DNA of 64,000 nt from Monosporascus cannonballus (taxonomy: Eukaryota > Ascomycota > Sordariomycetes > Xylariales). The notes beneath the pieces were generated by a model. It had not been told where the DNA came from. It saw only the letters and a program-made list of their open reading frames with translations, and made no database searches. Below are positions 12,230 to 46,646 of this stretch, piece by piece. The first letter of the stretch is position 1, and every line of letters begins with the position of its first letter. The DNA is taken from positions 496,001 through 560,000 of the forward strand of contig QJNS01000001.1 of NCBI GenBank assembly GCA_004154925.1, read 5' to 3'. The position numbers were made by a program, and so were the translations under genes.

Positions 12230-12616
12230 TGTCATGGCCCAACGAGCCACGGTTTCCAGAAACGGTCTGTCATAATCCAACCACAAGTGCGCGGTGGGGG
12301 CAGGTCACGTGATGGATCACCAACTCACTGGTAGTAAGCCAATGAGCCGGATCACTAACTCACTGGTGGTAAACCAGTGAGCCGGATCGCTAGTTCACTG
12401 GTAATAATCCGGCTAACAGGAATAGGATATATACGCTTATTAATTCCATAATTACATAACTTCAGTTTGCAATATAATATCGTTACCTAAGGCACCCTTG
12501 GTATTACAAAACGTAATACCATTATTATATTTATTATTTAAGTTCTTACGATATTCCTATGAACATAAACCCGTACAACTAAGGTTTAAGAATTAGTTAA
12601 ATCCTAAGCTATTATA
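12230..12616 (+). repeat. 5' LTR of element C
   Basis: 387 bp, starting TGTCATGGCCC. U3 holds tandem units at 12314-12348 and 12349-12383 (35 bp each, beginning GGATCAC) plus a 27-bp partial unit to 12410. This is one unit more than the 3' LTR. It is less mutated than the element interior; the first 190 bases remain GC-rich. Confidence 0.9.
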
Positions 12617-35837: not shown

Positions 35838-35857
35838 TAATATTACAGCCGTGGTGT
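35838..35857 (+). promoter_or_regulatory. Left junction: nonanucleotide and right arm of the viral origin hairpin
   Basis: TAATATTAC (35838-35846) is followed by CAGCCGTGGTGT (35846-35857). This arm pairs with ACACTACGGCTG at 46618-46629, which lies at the other end of the insert: 12 base pairs with one G-T wobble. The hairpin can only form if the ends are joined, so it indicates a circular ancestor nicked here. Confidence 0.85.
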
Positions 35858-35860
35858 TTT

Positions 35861-35959
35861 GGTGTCTTACTAGGGTATGCACCAATCGGATATCTAGGAT
35901 TCCGGTTTTGTTTTGGTGTCCTACCAATAGGAAATGTAGCACTTTTGAGCGCAGGTGTC
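35861..35959 (+). promoter_or_regulatory. Three GGTGTC iteron-like direct repeats
   Basis: GGTGTC occurs at 35861-35866 (followed by TTAC), 35915-35920 (CTAC) and 35954-35959 (CGTG). Inverted copies (GGACAC) lie near the other viral end at 46503-46508 and 46616-46621. Repeats of this size beside the origin are the usual Rep-binding iterons of CRESS viruses. The binding role is inference. Confidence 0.55.
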
Positions 35960-35973
35960 CGTGCATCGGATGT

Positions 35974-36136
35974 TGTCGGCTACCAGGGGGTGCTTTAGCA
36001 CTCCATATACGGAAGATTCCCTCTGATCGGAACATATATCTTCCGTGACTAGATCATCTTAAAGTGCAATGTGCGTTTTAAAGCACCTGTAACTAGTTAT
36101 TAATATATATATAATTAATATCCCTAATATCTGATA
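35974..36136 (+). repeat. Copia 5' LTR
   Basis: 163 bp, TGTCGGCTACC to ATATCTGATA. Includes the hairpin-like GGTGCTTTAGCACTCC and the block CATATACGGAAGATTCC shared with the 3' LTR. Confidence 0.9.
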
Positions 36137-39100
36137 ATTTAAAGTTTTATTCGTTTAATTAAGGCATATATTAATTAATCAACTATTATTACAACGATAT
36201 AAGTCCCATATTAGTTATAATGATCGAAATACGCCAATAATAATAATGGCGACCGTACCGTTAACGTTTTCCGTTATTTATAAAAAACCTAAGGATTAAA
36301 ATCATTTTAAAGGCGAATTCCAATTTAAAGAATATACGTTTAATATTTAGAATTATATCGATCCTAATTAAACTTTTTAGTAAATTATTAAATTTATAAA
36401 ATCTAATATAACTTTTTATTTACCAAAACGAATCCGTTATACGAGACGAATTAATATCTTAAGCAGTTTTTCGTTTACATTCATATCTTTCGAAAAAATT
36501 ACTAAAAAAATCGATTATACCAGTTACCTTATGAATATTTTTAAAATAACGACCGAAAATAAATAAACATACAATTAGGATTTTACGGCGTATATTTATA
36601 AAGATTGGAAATATGATACCTTATGCAAAAGCATTAACGACCTTACGAAATAAATCTTACAGTCGGTATTTCCAGTAATTTAAAAAACTAGCTTATTTTT
36701 AAGAAAAAACTTACGAAAATGGTACGTTAACTTAGGCGAATTCTGCAAAGTATACGATAGCAAACTATTAATTAATACCTAACGGAAATATTGCGAATAA
36801 ATAAAATAAGATTCGAAATTAATAAAGAAATTAAACAAATAAATCGTACAATAGCAAGAAATTATGGCCTAAAATAATAATATAGTGTTCCGTAAATAAA
36901 AATAATAATCGTATAGGTTAACGATTTATACAGAATATTAGCCTTTATTATCGGAATTTAAATAATTATTTTTTAAATAGTAAAAAAGGCCGAAATTAAT
37001 AATAATACAATTAATTCTTAAAAAATAATAATAATTCTATTAAATTATTAGAATATAACCAACTTACAATAATCGTTAAAAATATTAATATAACGTTTTT
37101 AACGTTTTACAAAATATTTATAAATTTTCTTAATTACAACGATCTTAATTAAGAAAATCTCAAAAATATTAATTTTTAACCGTAAGAAAGGACTTTAAAT
37201 CGTAAGCCGAAACGAAGTAACCGTAAAGGTTCTTATACGGACCAAAATAATAATACGCGAAAATATCAGGAATTAAACGTATAAGGTACCCGTTATAAAG
37301 CGTACTTAATTAATTATTATATATTATTTAATTATTATTATATATTCCTTAAAAAAACCTTAAAAGGTTTCCGTTTTAACGATAATATAATAACATATAT
37401 TTAAGGAAGAATTTCCGCCGGTTAATCTTTAAAGAAAAAAATCGACTGTTTTTTAAAGATTATGGAAAAATTTATTATATAAAAGATAAATTAATTCCTA
37501 AAGGGGGAATATCAAATATTAATATATTTTTTAATTATTAATTAATATAACGTTATAAACATTTTATTTTACCCCTCAAGGAATTTAATTATTTTGAACT
37601 TAAAATTCACCATATATATTTTTAATTTAATTAGTAAATTCTTAAATTTTAAATTTACCTTATTAAATAATAAGGTGTACGTAAGTAATAATTTTGTTCC
37701 GATTACGGGGTACGGAAAGGTCAATATAATTCTTCAAAGTTTTAGCGGTACAAAAGCGTTACGTTTATATGACGTAATATATTGCGAAAATTTCGTATAT
37801 AATTTGATACTTTTCCAGTAGTTCCGGAAAACAACTTATTAATAGCATAATTAAAAAATTAATATTTTATTTGAAATAAATATAGTTAAGTAGTTATTAT
37901 GTTAATAAATAAATTTATTTAATTCGTTATCGAAAATATTGGCGCAATAAATATTTATATAATTTTAATAATTTATAAACGAAACGTTAATTCGTAAGTA
38001 ATAAAATTATTACGAATCGATAACGGTATTATATAGTACCTAAAATTAAAATATTTAAAACCCGAAGTAATTATTTAATTAAAATTTTATACGAAAGAGC
38101 TTTGGCTAAAGGGTTTTATAATAGTTAAATATTAAGTATATAGTAAGGCGAAAGTTAAAAGGGTAATACGCCGCAAGCAAAAAAGGGAATATTTCGATTA
38201 AAATAAAGAATTATCATCGGTTTTATAAATTTTGATGAAAAATTTAAAGGATATAAATATGTTATGTTTGTTACCGATAGATACTAAGGTTTTATTTAGA
38301 ATATTTATTTTAAAAACCGAAAGTAAAATATATTATTTATAACGTTTCGATATTTCTTAAAAGTTTTAAAAAATTAAGAAAAGGTTTTCCTATAGGTAAT
38401 CGAATACGATAACGAAATCCTAAAAACCTATTAGTTTCGAAATATATTTTAGTTGCTTTTTTTAATATTATATATCTAAGTTTAAAACGGGGTGAGTAAA
38501 ACGTTTAAGAGATATCATTAAGGAAAAAACGATTATAATGCGAAATAATGTTAAGTTATTTCTATTCTTAATCGTATATATCCTTTAAGTAGTAATATAT
38601 TTATATAATTGTATTTCTAAATACGTAATTCTTTGAGCAAAGATTATACGAAATTTATTATATTTACTTGGTATATAAAAATAACATTATAATAATTACC
38701 CTCATAAAAATATAAAGATTTTAGAAATTAAACCCTAAAACATAAATTAGTTATTTTTATCGATTACCGATTTATGAATATTTACGAAATTTCGAACCTA
38801 TTAACTAATAAATTTATTATTATTTAAAATATATAATTTAATAAGAAAATTATTTTTTTTTAGCTTATATCAAAAATTTAAAAAACAATTTTGTGTATAT
38901 TATAAAAAAATGTAAAAGATATTGGGCTAAGTAAAAATATATAATTAAAATAATAACTATTTAATTATATATACTAAAAGGATAAAAATTTAAATAAAAT
39001 AATTTAATTACCGGCTAAATAAAAAAATTAATTTTAAAAAGATATTAACATAAAATAGATACGGAATAGAGAAGAATAAGCTTATTCGTAAAGGATTAAT

Positions 39101-41227
39101 TAACCTTATATAATTATTATATTCGAATTATTTCCGTTTTTTAAATTATTACTGTTAATAACGTTTACCTTAATAATTATTATGATTATTATGCCGACGA
39201 AAAAAATAAAAGTAGCTTCAGGTTTTTTTATGTTATTTAACCCAGAATAACGGTAAAAAATGAAAGTACCTTACGGGTTGTAAATAAAAACTTCTTATAT
39301 GTTCCGTATTAAAAGGGTATTATCCGAAAGGAATACAAAATGTAAGAAATCGTATTTAATGTAGGACGTTTAACCTTTTTTATAAGTACGTACGATAACC
39401 GGCCGGTAAGTTACGGAAATTTAAGGAAATTAATTATCCGGAACTTACGTTATTTTAATTAAACAAATAATACTATTTTGATATATAAAAAGGTATTTAA
39501 GTTATAAAATCAGATATATAGGCGTAATTTATTATTACCGCCGTAAGGCCATAAAAAACTAAATATATATCTATTAAAAGAAATATTTTATAAAACCGAA
39601 AAGGGTTATTTATAAAGCTATAAGGAAATATAATTCTAAAAAGCCGATAATTAAATTTTGACTAAAAAGAAATAGGTTTTAGGATATATATAAATATATG
39701 TTTATGAGTTTAATAAACATGGTTAATTTAAAAATATAAAGCTTATTTTATTATATAAAATAATTAATAACTTAAAATGGTTTATAACGATATATACGTA
39801 ATTACCCTTATTAGAAAATCGTTTTGAGCTTTAATCGTTATTACGGTTAAGTTCGATTTAAGATTTAAATAATATAATATTATAAAAGCCTTTATAAATG
39901 CTAATTTACTTTACGAAATATATATAAAAATGCCTTTAAAATATTTATAACGTAATAGGATTTTCTTAATTAGGAAGGTATTATATTAATTAAAAGTATT
40001 ACTTTTTTTAAAATAGAAAAACTTTATTAAAACGTTTAAAAAATTAAGATTTAATTCCGTTCCTTACGAACCTCATTATTTTATTCGTTAAAAGATATTT
40101 ATTTTTTATGCACAATATTATTATAATATATTATAAATAAAATTAAACCTTTATCGATTAATTAATTTAATAAATATAAGACCCGTATATCCCAATAAAA
40201 GATCAGGATTTATAATAATTTTTCGATATCGAAATAATTCAAAATAAATTTATTAAGAAAATTTAGTTATTTTAATCAGATTTTATAGATAAATTAATTA
40301 ACTTAATATTTAAAAAAAGCTTAAATAGTTTTTCAAAAATACTTATAACTGTTATTAAGTTATTGCCAAATCTTAATCTAAATTATTTAAGCTTTATTAC
40401 TAAATATTTAAAAAATCAGTTCTATTTTTTTCGAAATAATTAATACATAACCTAATATATCCTTTACGGTATTCCGATATGTTTGATTTAATTTGAACCC
40501 TAATAATGTATATTATAAAGCTATTAACCAAATTATATTATACTTAATCGAAATTAAAGCAGTAACGTTATATTTCGGGGGTAAAGATTTATTAAATATT
40601 TAAAATAACGCTTTTTTTACAAATAATTTAATGGATTAAAAAAATTTTACGTTTACGTTATAAAGTTTTTTAGAAAAATAATAAAATAACGGGCAAATAA
40701 ATAAAATATAATAATTATTTTTATAATAAAAATGGAGTTATTATTTTTTATATAAGTTATAAAGAAAATTTTATTTAGTTTTTGATTAATTAAAAAATTA
40801 AAAATTATTTTAAATATAAAACCGTTAAATATATAATATTATAATTAATAAATTATACGGCTTATTAATACCGATATTACTTTATTAATAATAGAATTAA
40901 AGTATATAAATATATATAATTATTAATTACGATAAACCGTAAAAAAGGATTTAATTAAAATAAAGTATACGCTTACGGACGATATATTAGCTAACCGTAT
41001 AACAAAAACCTTATTACGCGAACCTTTTAAGCATTTTAGAAAATAATTAGGATTAATAAATATTACAGAAGCCCTTAATTAACGGAAAAACGCCTTGCGA
41101 AAAATTTTAAAGACAAAATTAACTAATTAAAAATATTTAATCGTCGGAAAAAAGGTGGTATGGATAATTATAGCTTTAGGAGTTGTAATAATTAATACCG
41201 TGAATACTTTAAGATGTTAAAGGGGTA
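36137..41227 (+). pseudogene. Copia gag-pol pseudogene
   Basis: A 75-codon open piece at 37594-37821 carries the protease-to-integrase linker signature (VPITGYGKVNIILQ, then LRLYDVIYCENFVYNLIL). The integrase core is seen at 38261-38284 as VMFVTDRY, with its catalytic Asp. The RT thumb-side block at about 39925-40140 reads IYIKMPLKYL, then IRKVLY and LKVLLFLK, aligning with the Copia LYGLKQ-type region. RNase H follows to about 41050. This order separates it from Gypsy. Stops are numerous. Confidence 0.8.
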
Positions 41228-41381
41228 TGTCGGTTAGCAGGGAGTAATCTAGTACCCCATATACGGAAAATTCCCTTTGATCGGAACATATATGTTCCGG
41301 GACTAGGTTACCTTAAAGTGCAGTGCGCCTTTTAGAGCACCTGCAACTAGTTATCAATACACACACAACTGATGTCCCTTA

Positions 41382-41421
41382 ACCTTGGACCCCACATAAT
41401 GAATAACTCTAATAATGAATA
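41382..41421 (+). repeat. Left terminal inverted repeat (partner 43172-43211)
   Basis: Starts ACCTTGGACCCCACATAATG. The right repeat in reverse starts ACCTCGGACCCC. Forty bases align with three differences, each C versus T, as RIP would leave. Confidence 0.9.
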
Positions 41422-41449
41422 GGGAAAACATACCTAAAATCATAATAAC

Positions 41450-43092
41450 CTACATATTCCAAAACCTTTTAATAACGTAATAGCGTATTTCTTAATAAAA
41501 TAAAACTATTTAAGCTATTTAGTTTTATGTTGCTTTTTTTAATAAGCTGTTTTTTAATATAACTGGTAATTAGAACCTAATCGTTAGCCTTTATAGGCTT
41601 TAAACGTTTAATAATTTTATTCTTAGCTAACTTAATATTTAATAAATTCGCAAAAATCTTATTCGGTTACTTAATAATAATTTAACGTTTACGATCTTCG
41701 TATTTTTCGAATTTCGTTCGCAGGAATTAATTATTATGGCAGAAAATAACGTTTTCGGTATTAAGATTATTAAGCTTTTTAACAATTTTAATTACTACCT
41801 TTTTTATATCGCAAAACGCCTTCGCCTAATTACGTAAAGTTGTTCGCATATTTTTTTATAACTTTAATGCCGTATAAAGAATATATACGATTTCGTTTTA
41901 GTTAATAATTATTTGTTCCGGGGGTATTTTCGGCTTAAGGGTTAGTTAAGATATTATTTCGGGATCCTTTAATATTATTTCGGGTTTAAAAGAAAATAAG
42001 CCGGTATAACGTTATCTATTTTTAATATTTTTATCGTTAAAGGCAGTCTCGGCAACTTTGCGATACATTTTTAACATACGGCATTTATATTTGGGAAATA
42101 TTACGAATAATTAGCCGGTTTTCCGCAAAACGATACGATATTTCTTTTTAAATACGGAAAATACGGTAACGTTAAATAGCTAAAAGTTACCATCCGAATA
42201 AAGTAAAAAATATATAAGGATAATTTTATTTTCAAATTATTTTTACATAAAATTAAAAGATACGTATATAATATAGTTATTTAAGATAAGTAACCGCCAT
42301 TTATTATAAAAACGGGGCTTAATTTCCGAAAAAAAAGATTTTAACCATTTTAACATAATAACGTTATTAATTTACCCTTTCGGAATTAATGTATATTTAG
42401 CGGTTTCGATATTTTCGGGTAATTATTATTTTTGAATAGTAAAACTATTAAAAATATATACGACCGTATCTTTTTCGTATATAAAGCCGATATATTTAAG
42501 GATAAATACCTATAATGTTACCTCCGATTTTCTAAGTTTCGCATAAGCCGTTTCCGAAAATCCTATAACCGTTTCATTAGCTTATTCCTTTTCTTAAATG
42601 CCCGTTTCATTTATATTATATTCGTTCGTAAGCTTAATTTTATATTTGATTCGGACAGCGGTAAAGAAAAAAAAATTCGCAGATATCGTCGCGATCGCGT
42701 ACCTGTAGGCGGTTCCGGGGCATAATTTGTTTTGTTTTTCATATGTATCTTATTATGGCGTACAATAAAACAATTAATCTAATTTTTCCAGAAAGTCCCT
42801 TTAAGGCTTAATAAGGTTTCTGCCATTTGACGGAGCTATATCTTTATAAGGGCGCGGCCGTATGTTTTTTCGTGTAATATCCAGTTAATAAATTTATCCA
42901 TTTCTTAATCTGACAATTTATATGTTTTAGTTTTGGTTTCGGAACGCGATTTGGAACCATGGACGCGGTATAACAGGGTCGACTAGGGTATATCGAATCG
43001 TAAGTTCGCAAGAGTTTTGGAACCACCTTCCGCCATAAAATTCTTGGCATCCCGAATTCTACGCTTTCGGTCGAAATTCACCATCTTTACCC
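41450..43092 (-). pseudogene. pogo/Fot1-like transposase pseudogene
   Basis: The minus frame starts MVNFDRKRRIRDAKNFMAEG at 43092. An N-terminal DNA-binding helix-turn-helix follows, with STLLYRVHGSKSRSE (about 43000-42940), then a CENP-B-like second helix block. The first catalytic site of the DDE domain lies at 42620-42597 and reads YNINETGI, with Asn in place of the expected Asp. Later parts (about 42500-42300) fit the DDE core. At least four in-frame TAA/TAG codons and some frame changes make it inactive. Transposases of this family cut and paste at TA. Confidence 0.8.
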
Positions 43093-43227
43093 GAAATCAA
43101 TTAACGAAAGGGTTATTAAGTTATTACGGAGTGAAGCTTTAAGGAATGGTTGTTATTGTGAAAAAAAGTCGTATTCATTGTTAGGGTTATTCATTATGTG
43201 GGGTCCGAGGTTATATCTAACAGATGT

Positions 43228-43452
43228 TCCTCCATCCGGTGCTAGTTCCTGCATTATTTTATGCGCCAACGTTCGTATTCAAATTTAGCTTGCTTTGTTG
43301 GGTTTTATTTGTTTTAGTTTTCTTTTTGCATATACGTCAAATTTCGTATTTCAGCGTATTAGCATTACTTTCTTTATTTATATCTTTGTTTTTTCCCCTT
43401 TTATTTATTTTCTTTTATATATTTGACGTTTTTTTAAGCTTTTCTTAATAAT
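43228..43452. other. Viral leader/promoter side, pyrimidine-rich
   Basis: Together with 35847-35968 this is the long intergenic side between the origin and the capsid-like gene. The plus strand is T-rich from about 43290. An open frame of 74 codons (43224-43448) is very hydrophobic, but that is what T-rich DNA gives, so I do not call it a gene. A small membrane movement-type protein cannot be excluded. Confidence 0.4.
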
Positions 43453-44591
43453 ATATTCCGTTATCGTCGTCCTTATTGTCTTTATCCCCGTTATTGCCGT
43501 TATCGTCCCAGGTTTTATCCAAATCGTCGATATGGTATTGTTCGTTATTTTAATTATGCCCGTCGGTATTAACGTATTTTAATTAGTTTTTTTTCGTAAC
43601 GTTAATATACTGCTAGTTATAAGGTTTGGGGTCCTAACTGTACTGAAGGACCGTTATCTTGTAATTTTCGTCCTTTCGATTGTCGTTATCCGTTTTTTTC
43701 TTCCGATAAGAATTTTTTCCCTTATATTTCGTTTCGTTTACGTAGTTTAATTAAAGAATAACGTAAACGTTTTATTTTTTGGTACTGGTTTTCTAACCAG
43801 TTTTACGACGATTACAATCGGTGGCCTAATTATTATCCTTTTCGTTATCATGCTTAAAGGGTGGTTTGGCGGTTATCGTCGTTATTTTAAATATCCGTAC
43901 GTATTTTATCAGTTTGCGCGGATTATAGGTAAAGTTGCGTCAATTAGTTATTATGTCGTAAAATTTATAGAACAAGTTAATAAGATTCGGTACATGCCCA
44001 TTTTTTACATTAGGAATTCGGATTTTGTTTTTTTGATTCCTGGTAATAAAGTTTATCGGTTTGATAATCGGATTACGCGGATTATTATTATTAACGGTGT
44101 TCGTTTAGATTTTGATATTATTACGTTATATAGTTATATTATACGTGTTTTAATTTACGCGCCTGTAATGGGCCTAGTGGCAATATTTTTGTTACCGGTT
44201 TTTTCGGGTATTTATAATTGCCGTAATCCGTTAGGCGTTTTTTGAGTTTTATAGGGGTTACGGATATTTACGCGTCTAATTTTTTACTTGCCGATAATGT
44301 TATTTTGGAACCTATCGAACCTAAGGCTTTTATTTATTGGTTTACTTAGCGCGAGATTAAAAAACGCGTTTTTGTTTATAGGGTTTATAATAGGCGTTTT
44401 ATTTATAGTGTTAATAATTTAGAAAATCGACCTTTTAATATTTACGTTCGAATAATACGAAAGTTAAAATTTAAAAATAACGTTAATAATTTTTACGTAT
44501 TACGGAAAATATTCGGCTTAAATTTAATATTTATTTCTTTATTACGATTTATGTTCTGGTTTGTTTATGAAAAATATATTTCGGCTACTTA
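43453..44591 (+). pseudogene. Capsid-like protein pseudogene of the CRESS virus
   Basis: The frame from about 43453 begins with an Arg/Tyr-rich arm (RRPYCLYPRYCRY and more, 43462-43570). Such arms are typical of capsid N-termini that bind single-stranded DNA and carry nuclear import signals. The probable start codon reads ATA. A frame change near 43850 leads into a 131-codon open piece ending in TGA at 44245, with aromatic and beta-rich segments. A further roughly 115-codon stretch in another frame (about 44253-44591) has one internal TAG. Position opposite Rep and total size suit a capsid gene. I see no family-specific motif beyond the arm, so the call rests on composition and context. Confidence 0.6.
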
Positions 44592-44899
44592 ATTTGTTTA
44601 TGATAAAAGTTCATTCCTAAAATAAAGGTAAATTATTATCGCATAAGTATTCGAGCTCCTAATTTCGGGTTCCTTTTCGGCCTAATATTTTATCGAATGA
44701 ACAATTTGGTTAATTCGAGGTTTTTATTATTATTCTGGAACATATTATTAAATATGCTTAATTTATAATAAGATTTGGGAATATTCGGGCCATATTTTAT
44801 TAAAAGGAATTAGATATTTAATATTCATAATTATCGTTATTTTTTATGTTTTGTAACAATAAATTCAATGCCTTTATTCTATTATCTGGTATTTTTGCA
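44592..44899. other. Region between the convergent viral genes
   Basis: AT-rich, with no clear frame. It corresponds to the short intergenic region where the two viral transcription units would end. The exact 3' end of the Rep-like gene may lie here. Confidence 0.4.
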
Positions 44900-46480
44900 T
44901 TTTTTATTTTTACAAGCAAATGTTTTTATCTTTACTAAAAAGTAATTTCTCTTTATTTATTGTTCGTTTACCTTTGTATATAAACGTATGTTTTCGCTAG
45001 CTAAATATATATAAGGCAGTCCTTAATTTAGGAAAATGCATTTTCCGTACGTAATAATCCGTAACGGAAACCTTTTGTTAATAGTTAAGTATATATTTTT
45101 AATATTTTAGCATCTGCTTAATATATAAGAGTATATAGTTTACTATAATGTATTAATTATGTAATAATAACATAAAAATAGGATTTTATCTTTATGTTAT
45201 ATATATATATAGTTTTAATAAACGTGTCTATATTATTTTATATGTACGGGTGTTTTCGTATATGTAAAGGGATTTTGGTCGAACTATATCAATTTGATTA
45301 ATTTATTTATCGAAAACCCGCGGGTAAATTACTGTGACCTTATTTATGTAAATTCCATTTAATATTAATAATTTTCCCCGTAAAGAGAGGGTTTCCTTAT
45401 GAAATCAGGGAAGGGGGGGCCTTGGAATAGGGGGGTTATGTTATTTAAGGTGTATTTATGTAATCGGAAAACGGGGAGGCCCTTAGTTGAATATTTGTTG
45501 TATAAAAAGATATATCTTTATGGATTAACGCCTTCGAGCCGCCGGTTTCGAAAGGAAAGGAGCGGGGAGGTACCCCCTTTGTAAAGCCGTAGCGGCGACG
45601 GGCAAGATGCTTACCTGGTGGATTTTTTAAGTTTTCTTTAACCTAATCGGAGGCCTCCTTTGGTAGGTTTAATATTCCGTTAAATTTGGGCGGGGTATAT
45701 GTTAGTACTGGAGGTTTAAAGCGGTCGTTTATATAGGAGCGTTTATTGCCGTAATTAAATATTAGCTCTTTACGTGCTTTCGACTTAAAGCGGGACATAA
45801 ATTCGTCCTTATTTGTAATTATCGTCGTTATTAACCAGAAGTTTTCTTTAATTTCTTTTTGTAGTAATTTTGGTTTCGTTATGTCGCCGCCGATATGGGT
45901 TAAATATTTTTTGTTTTCGTAGAGATAACGTTAAGCCGTTAATCTATTGCGTATCCTGGCGATATTTAGGTGGAATCCCTTAATATTAAAGTGGTCTAAA
46001 TTTTTGAGATATTTTTTGCGCCCATTTTTAATTACGTAAAAGTAGGAAATGCCGTTTTGTATTTTTCGCGGAAAACGTAATATTATTAAAAAAATTAAAT
46101 TTGTTAATTTTCGTAATAAACTTTTGTAAGTTTAGATGGCATTTTCGGGTAGGTAAATAAAACGGATTTGGCTACTAATTTAAATCGGCCTATGTTGTCG
46201 ACAAGTGGGTTTTCTAGGATTAGTTCTAGAAAGCTTTCTTTTGTGTTTGGTATAGTTTATACGATATTAGTAATTTCTGCTTCGAGGTCGAAAAAGTTGT
46301 TTGGTTATTTGTTAAAGGGCCAGTTACTTATAGCTGCTTTTGGTGTATTTGGAACGATAAAATTGATAAGTGATTTTGAGTTATCGAGTATTAATACCTA
46401 AGTCGGTATTGCTGCCTGGAATAACTGGCTTAGTAATATGATTTGTGAGGCTATCTTGCGAATGTGGAATTGGTGTTTGG
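44900..46480 (-). pseudogene. Rep-like replication initiator pseudogene (HUH endonuclease plus helicase)
   Basis: Rep nicks the viral origin and unwinds DNA in rolling-circle replication. From right to left on the minus strand: an unusual N-terminal extension of roughly 80 residues (about 46400-46190); motif I read as FTYP at 46157-46146; motif II at 46044-46033 read as YFYV, with Tyr codons where two His are expected (C-to-T); motif III with its Tyr at 45927-45904 (YLYENKKY). An intron at 45614-45332 follows, then the helicase part with a damaged Walker A at 45257-45234 and a possible Walker B near 45150-45130. In-frame TAA/TAG and one frame change near 46110 show it is dead. Geminivirus/genomovirus-like by motif spacing; exact family unresolved. 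Confidence 0.8.
45332..45614 (-). other. Putative Rep intron with an open read-through frame
   Basis: On the minus strand GTAAGC begins at 45614 and the last AG ends at 45332. Joining the flanks keeps the frame of the endonuclease part and of the Walker A part. The intron separates the two domains, as in mastreviruses and genomoviruses. Without splicing, the frame stays open for about 55 more codons to a TAA at 45447-45445, which would give a RepA-like short form. It is longer and more GC-rich than usual. Confidence 0.55.
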
Positions 46481-46617
46481 GTTTATCTTATTGTACATTG
46501 TGGGACACTGGGTTCCTTGATGTCCTTATATATTTGGTTTGTGTTGTTATTTGTTGGTTGGTTTCTCTATATTGGTTTCTTGTTATGTGTGTTGGTTTGC
46601 GTGATTTGGGGTAAGGG

Positions 46618-46646
46618 ACACTACGGCTGAAAACTTTTAATATTAC
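46618..46646 (+). promoter_or_regulatory. Right junction: left hairpin arm, loop and nonanucleotide
   Basis: ACACTACGGCTG (46618-46629) is the left arm. The loop runs AAAACTTTTAATATT to the nick at 46644/46645. TAATATTAC spans 46638-46646, and its AC and what follows belong to element H. Inverted iteron copies GGACAC lie at 46503-46508 and 46616-46621. Confidence 0.8.

Follow-up and report, generated by a model that had tools for sequence, protein, structure and literature searches.

Helitrons and IS200/IS605 elements encode an HUH-type enzyme, carry a hairpin near an end and insert at a short target without an ordinary duplication; Helitron ends read TC...CTRR, and their insertion takes place between A and T. 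To our knowledge, junction evidence for movement of integrated single-stranded DNA viruses driven by their replication-associated protein (Rep) is scarce. In the fungus Tuber melanosporum, a geminivirus-like transposon with 42 Rep copies or remnants is described in the available part of Liu et al. (2011, PMC3198968), while the accessible text of Filloux et al. (2015, PMC5014472) proposes rep-mediated expansion, and a role in transposition, for the endogenous geminiviral sequences of yam. The locus described here is a 10.8 kb insert in a 64,000-nucleotide stretch of Monosporascus cannonballus contig QJNS01000001.1 (positions 496,001 to 560,000; hereafter the window, with coordinates counted from its first base). 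The insert consists of a 3.55 kb geminivirus-like element with a later long terminal repeat (LTR) retrotransposon inside it; about 30 copies of this element, the present one included, are scattered over a genome of 88.8 Mb. It is probably a defunct member of a family about 3.5 kb long, of the type of the circular Rep-encoding single-stranded DNA (CRESS) viruses, placed by Rep cutting and joining at a host TAATATTAC.

The nonamer TAATATTAC stands at both edges of the insert (35838-35846 and 46638-46646), as the first-pass annotation of this DNA had claimed. Since the window is AT-rich and contains the nonamer 13 times against 8.2 expected (13 or more being reached in 9 of 100 shuffles), the two junctions alone could be due to chance, and the whole assembly (88.8 Mb, 618 contigs) was used as the test. 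Genome searches returned at least 37 matches for the right part of the element, at least 32 for its leftmost 136 bases and at least 41 for its middle part, some copies being in pieces. The comparison covered 30 left and 26 right ends, with 24 copies paired; L001 (the same place as L039) and L029 (without a true right end) were excluded. An exact nonamer is present at 19 of the 30 left ends, 29 of which match it in at least seven of nine positions, and the corresponding counts for the 26 right ends are 20 and 25.

At the left junction, TAATATT (35838-35844, forward strand) is assigned to the host: it is exact in 24 of 30 left ends, against a window background of 0.0016 per position, and single in the empty relatives. 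At the right junction, TAATATT (46638-46644, forward strand) is assigned to the element and is exact in 23 of 26 right ends, whereas the following AC (46645-46646, forward strand) is assigned to the host; right ends show AC in 21 cases, AT in four and GC in one, the window background of AC being 0.041 per position. The frequencies of host-side TAATATT and AC across the family thus place the junction pattern above chance. The right-end query stopped at 46640, which left TATTAC outside the selection; the left-end query contained the nonamer. Information content rises abruptly with the first base of the left nonamer and falls off where the right nonamer ends, and the host flanks outside the nonamer vary between copies. 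A 12-base target, TTTTAATATTAC, was rejected, as only this copy has the string at both junctions and the copies differ in the bases that precede the left nonamer. TAATATTA equals its own reverse complement, so that the direction of the nonamer is given by its last C alone, and the exact cut position is hidden because the nonamer is common to both junctions; TAATATT/AC is the cut known from geminivirus biochemistry. One copy, C207 (L046 on the left, L016 on the right), has a Gypsy-internal left flank and an LTR right flank, with the switch at the nonamer; perhaps two copies recombined, or two host sites were cut at once.

Fixed viral ends would also be expected from Rep nicking alone if host repair had captured linear viral DNA opened by Rep at its nick site, the nonamer then representing microhomology at breaks, for which nine bases of homology suffice. 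Such capture is nevertheless unlikely: it requires that host breaks fell nearly always at TAATATTAC and that ends stayed untrimmed (TAATATT in 24 of 30 left ends, AC in 21 of 26 right ends), and neither head-to-tail nor truncated junctions occur among the compared ends. None of the 30 left ends is preceded by an element right end, and head-to-tail concatemers were accordingly dropped as a candidate.

The two ends of the element rebuild a hairpin. The left arm CAGCCGTGGTGT (35846-35857) and the right arm ACACTACGGCTG (46618-46629, forward strand) pair at 12 positions, 11 of them Watson-Crick and one G-T, and the rejoined ends, ACACCACGGCTG...CAGCCGTGGTGT, hold TAATATTAC in the loop in the manner of a geminivirus-type origin. 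The 12-bp pairing with one wobble around the nonanucleotide, noted in the first-pass annotation, is therefore real, and the other viral copies agree with the window copy in their junctions and hairpin arms. Among the 24 paired copies, 14 have a stem paired at all 12 positions when wobbles are counted, six of these being entirely Watson-Crick, and the other 10 are paired at 10 or 11 positions; rejoined, the ends of these copies provide the stem-loop origin with nonanucleotide expected of an endogenised CRESS virus. A host hairpin was rejected as the target, because host flanks pair on average at 4.2 of 12 positions, compared with 4.4 after shuffling. Near the left end, four GGTGTT/GGTGTC repeats (starting at 35853, 35861, 35915 and 35954; 35853-35959 in all, forward strand), one of them within the stem, are candidate Rep-binding iterons; GGTGTY occurs on average 2.0 times per left end and 0.14 times in shuffles.

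Junction sequence alone cannot separate joining within the nonamer from a 9-bp duplication, and the locus could be read as a cut-and-paste transposon that has terminal repeats of 12 bp and carries Rep as cargo, its transposase making the 9-bp duplication with a strong preference for TAATATTAC; from Tuber, a Rep element is reported that has both terminal repeats and transposase frames (available part of Liu et al. 2011, PMC3198968). In that case, however, the nonamer would be absent from the circle, which would leave the hairpin and the iteron-like repeats without function, and Pfam scans of the family-wide parts of the element, which cover decayed pieces only, gave no transposase match. We consider such a transposon very unlikely.

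Removal of the insert from the host sequence was examined by joining the flanks of the 24 copies with one nonamer and comparing them with the window and the collected family loci, the low-complexity filter being on because AT repeats, mostly in L025, had given meaningless matches. A paralogue spanning the junction was found for 13 of the 24 copies, and for seven (C1, C30, C2, C289, C245, C91 and C157) it is ungapped, with a best nonamer match of 8/9 or 9/9. When the joined host flanks of C1 and C467 were searched for in the genome, each gave at least 38 further places, of which six each were read; these searches added C467, so that eight of 24 copies, at five distinct host-repeat sites, have an ungapped empty relative matching the nonamer in at least eight of nine positions. 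For C1, the window copy, the six relatives carry TAATATTAC (one), TAATATTAA (three), TGATATTAA (one) or TAACACTAA (one), with no gap within or beside the nonamer. The first-pass annotation had expected a single TAATATTAC-like site in the host Gypsy element H once the insert is removed, and the empty copies agree, one of them exactly. For C467, two of the six relatives have TAATATTAT, and the other four match in five to seven of nine positions. Altogether, 62 ungapped rows represent 38 distinct places, with matches of 9/9 in two rows, 8/9 in 15, 7/9 in 28, 6/9 in 11, 5/9 in three and 3/9 in three.

Some copies share a site: C289, C245 and C91 occupy one Gypsy position, C30 and C2 one LTR position, and the sites of C1 and C157 are separated by about 100 bases within one Gypsy region. 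As many copies reside in Gypsy elements, which multiply, one or a few insertions might have been copied along with host repeats, the shared junctions being inherited. Against this, the flanks of most copies differ; C68, C245 and C467 are only 0.2-0.4% transversions apart, yet are found at three different places in different host sequences; and C245 shares its Gypsy position with C289 and C91 but belongs to a different subfamily. Such passive multiplication is thus hardly credible. In less changed host relatives (window positions 12499, 18782, 57306 and 63909), TGGTATTAC or TAATACCAC occurs where filled copies have TAATATTAC, which suggests that some of the targets may have arisen by C-to-T mutation of the repeats.

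Integration by Rep would start from a circular element with one hairpin origin and TAATATTAC in its loop. Rep, the product of the complementary-strand gene, would nick the loop at TAATATT/AC, by analogy with geminiviruses, and would also nick host DNA at TAATATTAC. On the left, host TAATATT would then be joined to the element's AC end, and on the right the element's TAATATT end to host AC, by the chemistry that closes the circle at the end of rolling-circle replication. The outcome would be one complete copy in a defined orientation, with a nonamer on each side and its second strand completed by the host. Cutting and joining by Rep would account in one step for the fixed ends, the host nonamer, the orientation, the single copies, the untrimmed junctions and the hairpin. 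The preference of the first-pass annotation for site-specific Rep integration over random end joining is upheld by the fixed ends, the junctions across the family and the empty sites as far as site specificity is concerned; as for the agent, we infer that Rep is the joining enzyme, that the cut is at TAATATT/AC and that the host completes the second strand.

Several observations weigh against integration by Rep. None of the known copies is active, and a 9-bp duplication made by another enzyme with a TAATATTAC target would look identical. The flanks of C207 derive from different host repeats. For six of the 24 copies (C112, C68, C45, C3, C216 and C68b) only gapped paralogues were found, those read for C68 and C45 having no good nonamer, and for 10 of 24 a spanning paralogue is absent from the window, the collected loci and the genome searches made for C1 and C467. 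The mean nonamer match in the ungapped empty rows, 6.8/9, is no better than the host identity of 66-75%, and exact TAATATTAC in empty relatives is limited to two places, L003 and L073. Because the nonamer match is close to the general host identity, the weight of the empty-site test lies on the single, ungapped copy of the nonamer and not on its exactness; that the target was exact at insertion we infer from the filled copies.

A viral element with fixed ends is indeed present, but two thirds of the insert's length belongs to a retrotransposon that arrived later; neither this retrotransposon nor the family of about 30 copies was recognized in the first-pass annotation. The left part of the element (35845-35973, forward strand; at least 32 genome places, 30 of them compared) starts with AC and the stem arm, and the right part (43228-46644, forward strand), which also has genome matches, ends in TAATATT. 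Between them lies the nested LTR retrotransposon (35974-43222, forward strand), whose LTRs (35974-36125 and 41228-41379) are 82% alike and which is bordered by a GATGT target duplication (35969-35973 and 43223-43227); its presence rules out a single viral genome of 10.8 kb. The LTR has at least 41 matches in the genome, and copy C311 is nearly unbroken across the retrotransposon site, its left piece ending at 390355 and the next starting at 390359. Within the 3' LTR, an element with 42-bp inverted repeats that are 93% alike (41380-43213, no strand assigned) resembles pogo/Fot1 by look only, and a Pfam scan of one of its pieces gave no match. The locus therefore records three insertions in relative order, the inverted-repeat element in the 3' LTR and the retrotransposon in the viral element. 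By coordinates, the element with both nonamers measures 3555 bp (10809 - 7254); 17 of the 24 paired copies span 3388-3561 bp, and the remaining seven, including the window copy, are longer.

The decayed Rep catalytic domain lies at 45838-46241 on the complementary strand, where tblastn with a single protein, P0001 (Gemini_AL1), gave an E-value of 3.5e-15 for the window copy. A profile search with eleven open pieces of the complementary frame had P0001 as its one protein relative (E = 4e-17). P0001, a fragment of 153 aa encoded on a public contig of 643 bases, is the sole protein relative of this Rep that was found. It matches Gemini_AL1 in Pfam (5.6e-12) and resembles solved Rep chains (6e-8) and the Reps of phytoplasma plasmids; through it, the Gemini_AL1 Rep domain characteristic of endogenised CRESS viruses was recognized in the element. 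Among the collected sequences, P0001 matches 30 (best 2.7e-37; the window and L009 are one copy), while the reversed control gave one match at 0.74. In the genome, P0001 matches 42 places: 36 have stops inside, the other six are pieces of 44-69 residues, and no intact Rep is found among the 42. Direct Pfam scans of the decayed Rep pieces reached at best 0.061 (Gemini_AL1_M), and Pfam and PHROGs scans of the window pieces yielded nothing beyond weak matches. The genome search with PF00799 gave no matches, its controls being silent too, and scans of viral contigs with the Rep pieces, P0001 and the origin pattern found no relatives. The matched Rep pieces correspond to the catalytic part; the piece 45448-45642, which bears on the question of a superfamily 3 helicase, had no Pfam match.

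On the opposite strand, an open virion-sense frame (43751-44242, forward strand) with relatives in other copies is part of a second protein, suspected to be the capsid protein. An Arg/Tyr-rich stretch upstream (43453-43569, forward strand), kept in 24 loci and the window, might represent the capsid start. Codon positions of informative transversions were compared between two subfamilies (six and eight copies, 14 in all). Downstream virion-sense open pieces, in the frame of C245, have 12, 7 and 34 transversions at codon positions 1, 2 and 3 (225 columns each, binomial 4e-6), and the Rep piece has 6, 0 and 12 (binomial 0.004). The open piece containing the Arg-rich stretch has 6, 5 and 6, which gives no support for codon selection there. 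As C-to-T mutation produces transitions only, the transversion signal should predate the decay. Comparison of the capsid candidates with Pfam, PDB and the protein database found no relative; a capsid is the natural candidate for the second gene.

The indices of the element fit repeat-induced point mutation (TA/AT 1.14, (CA+TG)/(AC+GT) 0.65), but C-to-T differences are not restricted to CpA, the rate per C decreasing in the order CpT, CpA, CpC and CpG. Across 21 copies, the mean difference amounts to 19% transitions and 4.3% transversions. Two subfamilies can be distinguished: the 3.45 kb group has no match to approximately 45287-45620 of the 3.55 kb group, a stretch with the second gene on one side and the catalytic part of Rep on the other. 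Besides the trio C68, C245 and C467, a second close group consists of C30, C91, C289, C5, C112, C95 and C522 (nearest 0.6-1.2%), and such close groups at different places point to bursts of insertion. Movement inside the genome and repeated infection are indistinguishable, with selection on the virion-sense gene leaning towards a virus.

It is conceivable, if somewhat short of an even chance, that the family stems from a capsid-bearing geminivirus-like virus for which chromosomal insertion was regular, its Rep treating any host TAATATTAC as an origin; it would then amount to a rolling-circle transposon with a nine-base target, and bursts into mutated repeats would record past waves. Twenty-four paired copies, eight of them with an empty relative, represent the footprint of site-specific joining at a viral nick sequence. 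With purified protein and oligonucleotides, Rep-driven movement can thereby be put to a direct test; the footprint also links CRESS viruses with HUH transposons through their mechanism, and its target motif can be used to search other genomes for the same pattern. Geminivirus-like transposons of fungi are already known, Liu et al. (2011) being the one close precedent; for insertion at the viral nick sequence none was found in an open library that leaves out most subscription journals, and an earlier report is possible.

Compared with Helitrons and IS200/IS605 elements, the present family has in common the HUH-type enzyme, the hairpin near an end and the short target; those elements belong to other protein families and have other ends, whereas the target here is the element's own replication nick sequence. 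A Helitron was rejected, the ends being AC...TAATATT within TAATATTAC and not TC...CTRR. With genomoviruses and geminiviruses the element shares the Rep catalytic domain, the hairpin origin with TAATATTAC, and Rep and a second gene diverging from the origin on opposite strands. Known viruses of these groups measure about 2.1-3 kb (PMC5014472 for the geminivirus size), in contrast to 3.5 kb for the element, which is usually integrated at a fixed site. Integrated geminiviral Rep is likewise found in the endogenous geminiviral sequences of yam and other plants; yam EGV1 units are described as partial tandem repeats, and insertion at a host TAATATTAC is not stated in the available portions of PMC5014472 and PMC7758297. 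As in the Tuber transposon (PMC3198968, available part), a dispersed family in a fungus combines a geminivirus-like Rep with terminal inverted repeats, and the fixed ends of dispersed copies are evident here from 30 left and 26 right ends with 12-bp arms. According to the same text, the terminal repeats of the Tuber transposon are 37 bp long, it has two transposase frames and "no obvious" target duplications, and its copies are more than 95% identical. Neither the 37-bp repeats nor the transposase frames of Liu et al. (2011) were found, the arms being 12 bp and the scanned pieces giving no transposase match; in the present element, by contrast, the 12-bp arm forms the stem of the origin, TAATATTAC is the site of insertion, the virion strand carries a selected second gene and copies are about 77% alike.

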